From Dysidea avara (lineage: Eukaryota > Porifera > Demospongiae > Dictyoceratida > Dysideidae), in contig NC_089275.1 of NCBI RefSeq assembly GCF_963678975.1, positions 38,230,819 to 38,294,818 on the forward strand: a stretch of DNA of 64,000 nucleotides, given 5' to 3'. The translations under genes and the position numbers were made by a program. The notes beneath the pieces are model-generated. The model did no database searches. It was not told the DNA's origin and was given only the letters and a program-made list of their open reading frames with translations. Of this stretch, positions 34,089 through 52,116 are shown piece by piece (the stretch's first letter is position 1; every line of letters begins with the position of its first letter).

Positions 34089-37000
34089 TCATAAATCCTC
34101 ATCATCACTAAAAACACCAGATCCACTACCAGAACTGCTAAATGGTATTTCATCTGTGTGAAGATGGAGAAGTGTAATACATTCATGCCCACAATACACA
34201 GACAACATCATAAAACATGGAGATAGATTAAGGCATTTAAAAGAGGGTTGTACTTGGAGACTTATATTAGTAATAATAACAACTGGAGTTTAGATACTGA
34301 GGGTAGTAGTATGACATTATTAGCAAAAAATTGCTTTTTCAGTCTTAACACTTAACATCATTTCATGGAACTAGCTGCAAGTAATGACTTTGATCTGTTT
34401 AAGCATATACTCTGTAAACAAGGTTTGCAATTTAAAAATAATTGATCAAAATTGCCATTAAATGTTATGTGTTCGTAAAAGAATTTGAATAGCTAGAAAC
34501 ATTTATGCAACATAAAATTTTTTAGAGGTGCTTAATTTGTACATACAATCCAGGTGAATAGTACAATGTTGTGATTTTGCAACAAAGTTTGGCAATATAA
34601 TTATAAATTCATTTGCCACTAAATGTATTTCCTGAATAATAATAATAATTGGATTTTGCAAAAATTGTAAGGGTTTGCCAGAGAGGGAGATTCCATGTAA
34701 ATGTAGTTCCTTGGAATCCATACATGGATCTGTCCATGAAAATTCAATGACACTTGTACAAAACTATAACATACTATATTGCTCATCTATGCATCCATTG
34801 TTTCCAACATATAACAGTTTGTTTGGTGTTATTCTAGGTAGCAGCCACTCCATATTGATAGCACCATCTGTTGCTTTATTGACAAGGTATTGTTTAACTT
34901 CTTCAGGGGTATAGTGTGGGAATCGTTCCAACACCAAAGCTGCTGCTCCAGCAACAATACCACAAGCTTCTTTGGTGTCTCCTGATCTTGTTAAATAACA
35001 CTTTCTGGGTCTGAAGCATCTACAAATTTTACATAAATGATTATCTTTAGATTTTGATGCTTGTGAAATCTCAGACAAATTAAAGTGTCCCCCCTTTTTT
35101 CTTTGATTTTCTTTCCATTGCACGCACGCACGCACGCACACACGCACACACACACAATATTCACTACTGATGGCCTTCATGTTAGACAGCACTCCGTCAT
35201 GCCAATGTTTAGTAAAAGGCCACTTCCTCAGTAGTTCTCCAATCAGTAGCTGCTTAGGCAGTCTATCATCACTCATATGACCAAGGTGACCAAACCAGCA
35301 AAGGCACCTCTCCATAATAAAAATTTGCAATCAACGACTGCATACAGCAATTTGCTTTTCTTTTTCGTTGTAAATAATTTTCGTATGTAAAACTTGTACA
35401 AAAATTGCTTACATGAAATTTTTTTACACGAGATCAAACTACTCTAACAGAGCAGTCATTCACGTAAATCATACAAAACATATTTTACACGAAAATTTTT
35501 ATCATGAAAATAAAGCAGATTTTGGTACCAAATGCCCCTGACAAATTCTTAGTTTTAATATGCTCTCCACTTCCTTCACTGCTGGTATCAAGACACTCCC
35601 AAAATAGTGTGGACACGACGGTTATGAAGGTGGTAAGTTGTCTTATATCAAGAACCTTCCACCATAAATTAAAACAGACAAAAGACACATTTCTCTTGAA
35701 AAAGTCCTATTCATAAATTAAAAGTAGAGTCACACAAACTACCAAATGCCTTAGAGGCCCTCCCTCCACACTCAGTGGAGCAACATCATTATCATCACCA
35801 TTACCAACCCCACAGCCATACCCTTGGTTTTTTGTGAAGGCCAACAGTCAACCCAAACAGACTTGTCCCTACAACAAAGCTCCTTCCAAAAGATTCAAAG
35901 GCAGATCAAGTGCATGCATGCAGTGCAAGATCATCTACAAACTGTGATTCAGTAACTTGCAACCTAGACTTAATAGTATGGTCTCCTACCAGCCTCCTTC
36001 CACAACACGGCAAAGTCTACATGCACACACACATACACGCGCATGCACACGCACGCATACATGCACACACGCACACACACATATGCACACACACATATGC
36101 ACACACACACACACACACACACACACACACACACACACACACACACACACACACACACACACACACACACACACACACACACACACACACACACACACAC
36201 ACACACACACACACACACACACACACACACACACACACACACACACACACACTACACTACACACATGTGTGCACACATAACATAATTTGCTTTTAGTGAT
36301 GCTGAAAAATAATTTTCATATTACAAAAATTATTACACAAAATTTGTGGTTATATAAAGATCCCATGTAACTTTATTACTAAATACTGTAGTTATTGACT
36401 GGTTTGTAACTAAGACACAATAAGCATCAAGAATGTGTACATGGTTGAATCTTTTTCACCACTTCAGTAGATCAAAATTCTCTAATAGAACAGTCACAAA
36501 AAATAAACTGAAGTATACGTATGGTACACACATGTGCATACACTTACTGACACACACACATACACATGCTCAAGCATACATAACGCACACACTGGTATGA
36601 ATTACATGCACATGTACACATTACACTTGCAAGCACAAGAACATTCATTTACACACAGTGGTATATATACCCAAATGAAGTTGAAGTTGTTGCAGCTGTG
36701 ATGTATTGCCCAGGGGCAAACATTGTCACACACTTTTCATAGTTCACACCATAGAAAAAGTTGTAGATTATACTATCTCTGTAGTTTACTGTAGATCCAA
36801 CTGTGATCACATCAGGTGAATTTGCTGGAGAATACCCACAAGCATCTTCAGCAGTATATCCTATATTAATAATGAAAGATAATTACCTGTTTCTGCAAAT
36901 GTATCTTAAACTCTTACCTGCACCAGCGACTGCCACAATTCCAGCATCTACAGCTTTTTTAATGACAGCATTTATGACAGAGTGATTGCCATATCCCAGG

Positions 37001-50600: not shown

Positions 50601-52116
50601 AATAAAGTTATTTACTCTTGCTAATAGCTACAGTCAGGTTTCCTCTGATGTGGTTTCATATGTGATAATTCACTGCATGTAGTTGTGTTGTATGGTGTTA
50701 TGCAACAAGTGATGCGATGTATATCCAGCAGCTATGGAGCAAGCAACAATGTATGTTTTATGTTTGTGTGCTGTTGTAGTGTGTGTGTGTGTGTGTGTGT
50801 GTGTGTGTGTGTTGTGTGTGTGTGTGTGTGTGTGTGTGTGTGTGTGTGTGTGTGTGTGTGTGTGTGTGTGTGTGTGTGTGTGTGTGTGTGTGTCCATGCA
50901 CATGTGTACATACACTAACGTATGTTTGTGGAATAATTATATGTGTGCTTGTGTTGTGCAGTTGTGCATGCACAGTAGAGTACCAGTGAGAAGTTACAAC
51001 TATTGCTACCAACGAGATCCCATTATTATTTGAAAAATCATGTTCTCATTTCATGCATAAAATTGAACTGGCATCAATGAGAAACATTAAGCCATGCAAT
51101 TATGAGGTCACATGCTCATAAACTGCATTGAGCCAATACTGGTCACTCAATATATACGTGACTACCTTCTTGTAGTTCAAGCATGGATTCACAATGTTAA
51201 TAGTTCCTAGAAGTAATAGGCTGTTGAATTTGCAAATAAGAGGTGTCATCATTTCCCAGTACTACAATGGTAAACATATAAACCTTGTGTCTACTGATGT
51301 GTACACACTGTACTGAGACTTGCCGGGCTCTTACCTATACACTTTGGCCTTTTTTGCTACTCCAACAATTTTGCCAACTGCCAGACTAGCTACAGCAGTT
51401 CCCTGGCCATCACAGTCACTTCCATCATAGCCATATTTGTCATATCCACCATAAAATGCTCTACCACCAAACTCCTCATGTTTGTATTCTATCCCTGTGC
51501 TAAACACATAAATGTCCACTCCACTACCTGGAGAAAAAAAGGAAGAGGACAAGCTTTAAATTGTGACTTAAACACAGGTCCTATCTACTGTAAATACCCT
51601 GAATACACATATGCTAACTATGTAAGCAGTATAATATAGCCAATGAACTAGTTTAATTGTTCTGGTAATTTTGTATAATAGTACAAAAAGTTATGAAAAC
51701 TAAATCAAAGTTCAAAAGTACTAGCCTAGCTATGTCAGAAGTTTTGTGACCAAATGTGCACTGTTTTACATGCCTAGTTACAAGTGATTCCTATTGTCCT
51801 AAACACTTGTGTGTATGCTGTAAATTAACAGACTACATAATTGATTTGGTCTATAACACAATTTTCTATATATTTTTATGAATATTGTCTAGACAGATAA
51901 CAAATTACCTTGACTAATAGGACAATACTTTCCATCCAGTGGCTTTTGTCTTTGATCAATCCTATCAAGATGCCATCCTAGTCCATCAGTCGATGACCTC
52001 ACTTCTCTGTTGTGTACTTTACTGTCATCAATTGTAGTCATCAACTGAACATCTACTGGTAGAGCATTGATAGTTGTTAACACAGCACACACACCCCATA
52101 GAATCAGTGTTGCCAT
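47697..52116 (-). CDS. Gene B: secreted proteinase K-like pseudoprotease (S8 fold, dead triad)
   Basis: Exons (minus order): 51909-52116, 51335-51527, 50125-50354, 49893-50073, 47887-48137, 47697-47767. All are GT-AG with the same phases as gene A; the sum is 1134 bases, 377 aa. I start at the Met heading the signal peptide MATLILWGVCAVLTTINALP, 27 codons-plus inside a longer frame, because it aligns with gene A. Substitutions parallel gene A: Ser79 for Asp, Gln111 for His, Phe212 for the oxyanion Asn (GAGFH), Lys289 for Ser (GDTKEA). Exon 3 carries an 8-residue near-duplication, NAIIRKAV then NAVIRKAV, absent from A. The tail reads IPFSGSGDYNDNSDDEDLWK: an SGSGD site in an acidic setting, as in glycosaminoglycan-bearing proteins. 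It also lacks an I9 propeptide. Same strand as A, 8.2 kb upstream of it. Confidence 0.85.
48255..48690. repeat. tRNA-related SINE, copy 2, in gene B intron 4
   Basis: The body is as in copy 1 (CCCAGTGAACCAGCACTGGG, CCAGTTTACACCAGGTACCC twice). At ~48610-48685 the complement reads GGCAGCATAGCCAAGTGGTT (A box) and CCCAGGTTCGATTCTCGG (B box), with CGGCCTGGTAATC as a Thr(GGT)-like anticodon arm. CA arrays lie on both sides. Confidence 0.7.
48690..49312. repeat. (CA)n array with TGAG-CACA interruptions
   Basis: CA runs are broken at irregular intervals by ATGAGCACAC, giving a minisatellite within a microsatellite. It lies in gene B intron 4. No coding content. Confidence 0.95.
49340..49735. repeat. 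tRNA-related SINE, copy 3, degenerate
   Basis: ATGCCTACCCAGTAAACCAA, then CTTCCCCAGTTAACACCAGG and a decayed tRNA-like segment in reverse near 49660-49725 (complement GGTTCCAGGTTTATTGC). Also in gene B intron 4. Confidence 0.6.
50590..50620. mobile_element. 31-bp micro-copy of the CAAGAG family
   Basis: Arms CAAGAGTAAATAA and TTATTTACTCTTG around a five-base centre, flanked by CTAATAG at 50583-50589 and 50621-50627. Termini and 7-bp duplication length match the 14052-21401 element. It lies just upstream of exon 3 in gene B intron 2. Confidence 0.7.
50779..50895. repeat. (GT)n microsatellite in gene B intron 2
   Basis: An almost pure GT run interrupted once by GTTGTG. Frames across it are artefacts. 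Confidence 0.97.

Follow-up and report, generated by a model that had tools for sequence, protein, structure and literature searches.

The 64,000-nucleotide stretch of the genome of the sponge Dysidea avara analysed here (contig NC_089275.1, positions 38,230,819 to 38,294,818; referred to as the window) encodes on its minus strand two neighbouring members of the S8 (subtilase) family, A and B, in which every residue of the catalytic triad is replaced. We assign a probability of roughly 0.6 to the reading that A and B are secreted, non-catalytic binding proteins which are kept by purifying selection and end in a proteoglycan-type tail, an account that extends to the whole clade of dead subtilases to which the two belong. 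It suggests that an old enzyme fold has been reused as a non-cutting extracellular binder. What this account builds on can be read from the sequence itself: the arrangement of the exons, the fold family, the dead sites, the clade, the selection acting on the A-B pair, the tail motif and the lack of a propeptide in the gene models, and the pathway domains in the genome.

When spliced by script from the window, the six exons of A yield a protein of 366 amino acids followed by a stop and the six exons of B a protein of 377 amino acids. All ten introns have GT..AG borders, the phases run 1,2,1,2,1 in each gene, and the exon joints were reproduced by a purpose-written spliced aligner with each protein as the query. 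Both procedures thus agree with an earlier note on this DNA, which had proposed two complete proteins with matching exon phases. Exon 1 (A, 39328..39532; B, 51909..52116) starts in both genes with Met and a hydrophobic stretch and continues with a propeptide-less extension, which in A reaches to the first strand of the fold. From this hydrophobic N-terminus, and not from a signal-peptide program, we infer that A and B are probably secreted. Exon 1 was delimited by its splice sites and the hydrophobic stretch and exons 2 to 5 by splice sites and alignment; exon 5 of A ends at a shifted donor. Exon 6 relies on its splice site together with the candidate-exon control described below.

Both proteins match the Pfam profile Peptidase_S8 (PF00082) far above its cut-off of 21.8 bits (A, 86.3 bits, E-value 2.9e-24; B, 84.4 bits, E-value 1.1e-23). 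A search of the PDB, made with B only, returned aqualysin-1 (4dzt) as the top match (E-value 4.6e-44, residues 47-346 of B), followed by keratinase, proteinase-K-type enzymes and PCSK9 (around 1e-36). Profile and structure matches support the subtilase fold family assigned in the earlier note. The catalytic domains, at 290 and 301 residues, contain no large insert, and the proteins stop less than about 30 residues past the domain. Comparison with aqualysin in an alignment of 29 rows confirms all of the active-site replacements listed in the earlier note. Exon 2 (A, 38996..39188; B, 51335..51527) holds Ser at the place of the catalytic Asp (VFSTG in A) and Gln at that of the catalytic His (DGQGTA in A). 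The substrate strand, encoded by exon 3 (A, 36918..37120, ending at AGAG; B, 50125..50354, with an insert of about eight residues relative to A), reads VALPFLG as opposed to ANMSLGG in aqualysin, with Leu-Pro-Phe in place of Met-Ser-Leu. In exon 4 (A, 36671..36860, which also contains a conserved Cys pair; B, 49893..50073) the oxyanion Asn is replaced by Tyr in A and by Phe in B, and in exon 5 (A, 34775..35019, which also encodes the C-terminal part of the fold; B, 47887..48137) the catalytic Ser has become Lys within the motif GDTKEAC. In the Asp-His-Ser triad and the oxyanion Asn, A and B depart from active S8 enzymes. Cysteines are kept in A and B at all four places corresponding to aqualysin C67, C99, C163 and C194, which are paired in disulphides there. 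A degenerate DNA word for GQGTAVAS, with at most one mismatch allowed, occurs twice in the 550,814,596-base genome, once each in A and B, and the reversed control gave no match.

Directly before GDTKEAC, exon 5 of A and B carries an insert with two cysteines (GCFRPRKCY and RCLFKSTKKCY) that is not present in the other dead genes described below. It lies beside the former catalytic Ser, and possibly it forms a novel disulphide-bonded loop that covers the former active site. One may also imagine that the Ser that replaced Asp and the Lys that replaced Ser constitute a swapped Ser-Lys pair, in other words a rebuilt site that has retained hydrolysis. A and B share Ser, Gln and Lys despite a synonymous divergence (dS) of 0.46, and the neighbouring residues are nearly identical as well. 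With the oxyanion Asn exchanged for Tyr or Phe, A differing from B, and with Pro in the substrate strand, we nevertheless regard such a site as very improbable.

The account of A and B as dead subtilases given in the earlier note holds, except that they do not form a mere pair but the extreme end of a dead clade of seven genes. A protein search of the same genome yielded at least 131 matches and uncovered relatives of exon 1 at five further places, four on one contig (C4: 36.96, 37.035, 37.05 and 37.47 megabases, Mb) and one on another (C8: 10.10 Mb). The genes modelled there (L053, 349 amino acids; L054, 349; L055, 348; L056, 351; L057, 355) consist of six exons each and share the phases of the A-B pair. 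A maximum-likelihood tree of the 29 rows places A, B and L053-L057 in one clade (support 100/98), within which A is sister to B (100/100) and L053-L057 group together (95/92). The nearest active group in the tree is a multi-exon set at C4: 39.4-40.35 Mb, the join (86/79) being insecure. Most likely, the dead clade arose among active subtilases of the same genome.

Within the clade, the catalytic residues are lost to different extents. The Asp is gone from all seven genes: A and B have Ser, L055 has Ala, and L053, L054, L056 and L057 have Gly. The His is kept in L053 and L054 and gone from the other five, of which A and B have Gln, L055 has Val and both L056 and L057 have Phe. The catalytic Ser and the oxyanion Asn are lost in A and B only and both kept in L053-L057. 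Common to all seven are the replacement of the substrate-strand Ser by Pro and the retention of the four disulphide Cys places. The remaining 22 aligned rows, 20 from the same genome and two from the PDB, have Asp, His, Asn and Ser intact without exception, and Asp, His and Ser motifs are also present in ten out of ten further loci outside the table (L012, L015, L030, L033, L036-L038, L040, L041 and L045). On the simplest reading, loss of the Asp came first and occurred in the common ancestor of the seven genes, with parallel losses possible. With seven paralogues at different stages of loss, it becomes possible to ask in which order catalytic residues disappear and when the need for a propeptide ends.

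Some words on sampling are in order. Left out of the 29-row tree and table were L042, which carries stops, L040, L041 and L045, which are near copies of L039 and L043, the partial loci L047 and L058, L046, whose place is that of L013, L001-L007, which are the same places under later numbers, and L012, L015, L030, L033, L036, L037 and L038 as close kin of included rows. The first aligner models of L039-L050 had spurious end exons, and their catalytic domains alone were used. Among the 131 protein-search matches and 145 profile matches, site reading was limited to the loci fetched. The 9.5 kilobases (kb) that flank the window at each end (L051, L052) contained no further family exons at an E-value of 0.05.

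For eight pairs of genes, selection was assessed with a codon-likelihood script of our own (GY94-type, F3x4). For A and B, the ratio of nonsynonymous to synonymous divergence (omega) is 0.366 over 359 codons (dN 0.167, dS 0.457, twice the log-likelihood difference 33.8, p = 6.0e-9); the pair is therefore under purifying selection and not in decay, which sustains the view of selected pseudoproteases put forward before this ratio had been calculated. Similar values were obtained for L055-L057 (omega 0.341, p = 1.0e-9), L053-L057 (0.423, p = 2.1e-6) and L053-L054 (0.320, p = 1.7e-3). The other four pairs, i.e. the L056 pairs and A-L057, were saturated with dS from 2.1 to 110 and were not used.

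These figures bear on two competing explanations. According to the first, the genes derive from active subtilases and are pseudogenes in decay, whose reading frame and splice sites have persisted by chance or because the decay is recent. Such an origin would fit the complete loss of the active site in A and B as well as the lost donor in A, and another subtilase copy in the genome, L042, does carry stops. On the other hand, frames are intact in A and B at a dS of 0.46, the exon that contains two dead sites, exon 2, is the best-conserved one (62 of 65 residues identical between A and B), and six exons with matched phases are found in all seven models. Decay was rejected on omega and the intact frames, and we consider it improbable. 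The second explanation takes A and B for two alleles placed side by side by an assembly or haplotype artefact. They share a strand and fit into a stretch of 18 kb, but dS is 0.46, their introns are mostly unalignable and five more family members reside elsewhere, on the two contigs named above. Side-by-side alleles were rejected on dS and introns, and this explanation is hardly credible.

Silent differences between A and B are distributed unevenly. Exon 2 has 6 in 48.5 sites, compared with 72.3 in 213.3 sites in the other exons (Fisher p = 0.003, the exon having been picked after looking). The same low silent divergence is observed in exons 1 and 5 of the L053-L055 pair. Because silent divergence is uneven between exons, exon-sized gene conversion between paralogues is likely to have occurred somewhere in the family. 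The introns next to exon 2 are not alignable between A and B, and any conversion must therefore be old or exon-sized. This affects the proposal in the earlier note that the changes shared by A and B predate their duplication: for Asp to Ser and His to Gln the argument is weakened, since an old conversion of exon 2, with its low silent divergence, could have spread them.

All seven gene models end in a short last exon encoding Gly-Ser-Gly together with acidic residues, a feature that had gone unmentioned in the earlier note. In A (exon 6, 34089..34153) the tail reads NEIPFSSSGSGSGVFSDDEDL and in B (exon 6, 47697..47767) EKEIPFSGSGDYNDNSDDEDLWK; both resemble glycosaminoglycan attachment sites and have acidic SDDED ends. 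The tails of the relatives are ESDFDGSGSLGVVFE (L053), ESDFDGSGSLGVVFG (L054), DDIDGSGTLGITIA (L055), DDDGDSDGSGDSLMMP (L056) and DAGFDGSGGFDGSGDLGIIIN (L057). The element kept in all seven is Gly-Ser-Gly and not the acidic run. To obtain a control set, we collected candidate exon ends that follow good acceptors from the window and 14 other loci. A rule that asks for Gly-Ser-Gly plus at least two acidic residues is matched by 5 of 2174 of these when A and B themselves are included and by 3 of 2172 background ends, as opposed to seven out of seven tails. For the five relatives, about 0.1 match is expected by chance and five were found, four of these five genes being close paralogues. A chance origin of the tail motif was rejected on the background frequency. 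On the DNA level, a GATGG-AGTGGA core is conserved in L053, L055 and L057, with poorly conserved flanks. Gly-Ser/acidic tails were not found after the active genes (in the case of intronless genes about 1.5 kb downstream were searched); a looser scan there picked up some Ser-Gly stretches that we judged unlike the tails of the dead clade.

A xylose-bearing Ser typically precedes Gly and has acidic residues close by (PMC8418075). Domains of the corresponding pathway are encoded in the genome: the xylosyltransferase C-terminal domain Xylo_C has two matches (best E-value 2.1e-17) and the EXT-type domain Glyco_transf_64 has 18 exon-level matches (best E-value 9.4e-21). Most likely, the tail exon is a glycosaminoglycan attachment site. 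Alternatively, the proteins could be non-catalytic without being proteoglycans, the tail then serving as an acidic peptide that binds metal, mineral or protein and the cleft as an unmodified soluble receptor or decoy. The acidic SDDED ends of A and B agree with this, the glycosaminoglycan chain is a prediction, and pseudoenzymes often act by protein-protein interactions, as stated in a paper on metallopeptidases (PMC11266112). What speaks for an attachment site instead is that Gly-Ser-Gly, and not the acidic run, is kept throughout the clade, that the combination of Ser-Gly and an acidic cluster fits the published rule (PMC8418075), and that a domain of the priming enzyme, xylosyltransferase, is present in the genome. 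Overall, we deem the alternative without a glycosaminoglycan chain unlikely. As a putative attachment site, the tail would connect a protease fold directly with matrix glycans, a connection that is open to test.

In active relatives, the propeptide can be traced to some extent. Intronless active kin possess a propeptide of the canonical kind, with a VEEDQ-type end before the catalytic domain in the 11 loci compared. In L014, joining two exons at a GTAAGT donor yields a match to Pfam Inhibitor_I9 above the cut-off (E-value 4.9e-6). An exon of L043, a member of the active multi-exon group, resembles these I9 exons (E-value 1.3e-4), and the VEEDQ end resides in the next exon. I9 exons as queries detected L043 and its near copy L045; neither the window nor any of the five dead relatives gave a match at an E-value of 1 or better. 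The L014 exon alone as the query missed L043. A profile built from six joined active-kin propeptides found L043, L045, L048 and L046. Again no match at an E-value of 1 or better came from the DNA that precedes A and B or from the five dead relatives, for which 0.3-0.6 kb of upstream DNA were searched. The whole-genome search with the Inhibitor_I9 profile returned one weak place, because no single exon encodes the whole propeptide. First exons taken by themselves had no Pfam match, and of two joins that of L014 alone passed the cut-off. Stronger ground for regarding the dead genes as propeptide-less is provided by exon 1, which starts with Met and a hydrophobic stretch and leaves no room for a propeptide in the models. 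The propeptide-less start described in the earlier note is consistent with this and with the lack of a nearby I9 match.

Most likely, these features act together as follows. A and B would adopt a proteinase-K-type subtilase fold that is unable to cut peptides and would reach it without the help of a propeptide. The remodelled cleft would most likely bind a protein or peptide and, as a guess from context, might soak up the propeptide, an inhibitor or a substrate of active sister proteases. A glycosaminoglycan chain on the Ser of the tail would tether the protein to the extracellular matrix. In its most elaborate version, the clade would consist of secreted proteoglycans with a dead, propeptide-free subtilase core, which lost first Asp, then His and then Ser and Asn, and which serve as matrix-bound decoys or regulators of their active sisters; this we offer tentatively and place on the unlikely side.

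Several observations weigh against the reading of A and B, and of their clade, as non-catalytic, propeptide-less binders with an attachment tail. The tail of A hangs on a shifted donor: after exon 5, B has TATAG/GTAAGC and A has CATAGATGAGC, so that the homologous donor is destroyed and a GTATGT donor 12 bases further on is needed for the last intron. Without this splice, the protein would stop at IDEQYSML and lack the tail. The tails of the relatives, in turn, were picked among 59 candidate acceptors after a stricter filter (at least five acidic residues) had shown L056 alone. The gene conversion suggested by the uneven silent divergence blurs omega. Five of the seven genes keep Ser and Asn, two of them also His, and weak residual activity may persist in these five. 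Finally, the joined propeptide of L043 scores 14.0 bits, below the Pfam cut-off of 21.2, and both I9 searches gave no convincing match in six active loci (L039, L040, L041, L042, L044 and L058; best E-value 0.67). A missing match is therefore no proof of loss. Either the I9 searches are too weak, or some members of the active group had already lost or altered their propeptide. The absence of I9 is thus weak evidence of loss, and such a loss may predate catalytic death.

Comparison with known systems helps to delineate the clade. With the active aqualysin I/proteinase K subfamily of S8, A and B have the fold family, as judged from sequence, and the four Cys places in common. They differ in triad, oxyanion Asn and substrate strand, lack I9 in the models and possess the Gly-Ser-Gly/acidic tail in addition. 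PCSK9 is a secreted protein that works by binding and has a catalytic triad, a prodomain and a large C-terminal domain. A and B are proteinase-K-like in the same manner and are devoid of these three elements. The active multi-exon subtilases at C4: 39.4-40.35 Mb come closest within the genome. Exon 2 also has 193 bases in L039, L043 and L044, and six of the eight loci are without an I9 match, just as the dead clade. They differ by their intact triad, by a propeptide exon in L043 and L045 and by a C8 domain downstream of L039. Syndecans and glypicans are families of proteoglycan core proteins. Cores of this type and the tails seem to have the attachment signal in common, Ser-Gly next to acidic residues (PMC8418075), whereas the core of the dead clade is a dead protease fold and no membrane anchor is seen in the tails. 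Dead S8 proteins as such are already known from bacteria: the Clostridioides difficile proteins CspA and CspC are described as S8 pseudoproteases with two of three triad residues changed and a non-catalytic role (PMC6636752). In these bacterial proteins the triad is lost partially and in A and B completely. CspC keeps a prodomain and a jelly-roll insert (PMC6636752), neither of which is found in A and B. What A and B share with the Csp proteins and with PCSK9 is a subtilase fold that cuts hardly or not at all. Among the entries seen in full-text searches of open-access literature aimed at pseudoproteases, sponge subtilases or dead subtilase proteoglycans, there was no animal family of dead subtilases that lack a propeptide and are of matrix type, which does not amount to absence from print.

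The subtilase family as a whole is very strongly expanded in this genome, with 145 exon-level Peptidase_S8 matches in several clusters. These are located at C4: 10.7-11.7, 39.4-40.35 and 41.25-41.5 Mb and on other contigs, and the triads are intact in the 20 own-genome rows outside the dead clade. The C8 domain downstream of L039 is of the von Willebrand/mucin kind (Pfam E-value 2e-18), and a similar stretch is present in L044; an architecture with C8 beside S8 proteases is not known to us. L039, L040 and L041 (C4: 40.215-40.27 Mb) have identical tblastn matches and the copy L042 carries stops, i.e. recent duplication and decay occur side by side in this group.

The window itself also contains sequences of other origin. 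A 743-amino-acid open frame on the plus strand (31047-33278) with DUF4371 and hAT dimerisation domains encodes a hAT-type transposase. Between A and B, an open frame for a reverse transcriptase is found on the minus strand (42402-43487; RVT_1, E-value 4.1e-30). Intron 4 of both A (35020-36670) and B (48138-49892) harbours long TG/CA repeat arrays and a stretch of 97 bases that is alignable between the two.

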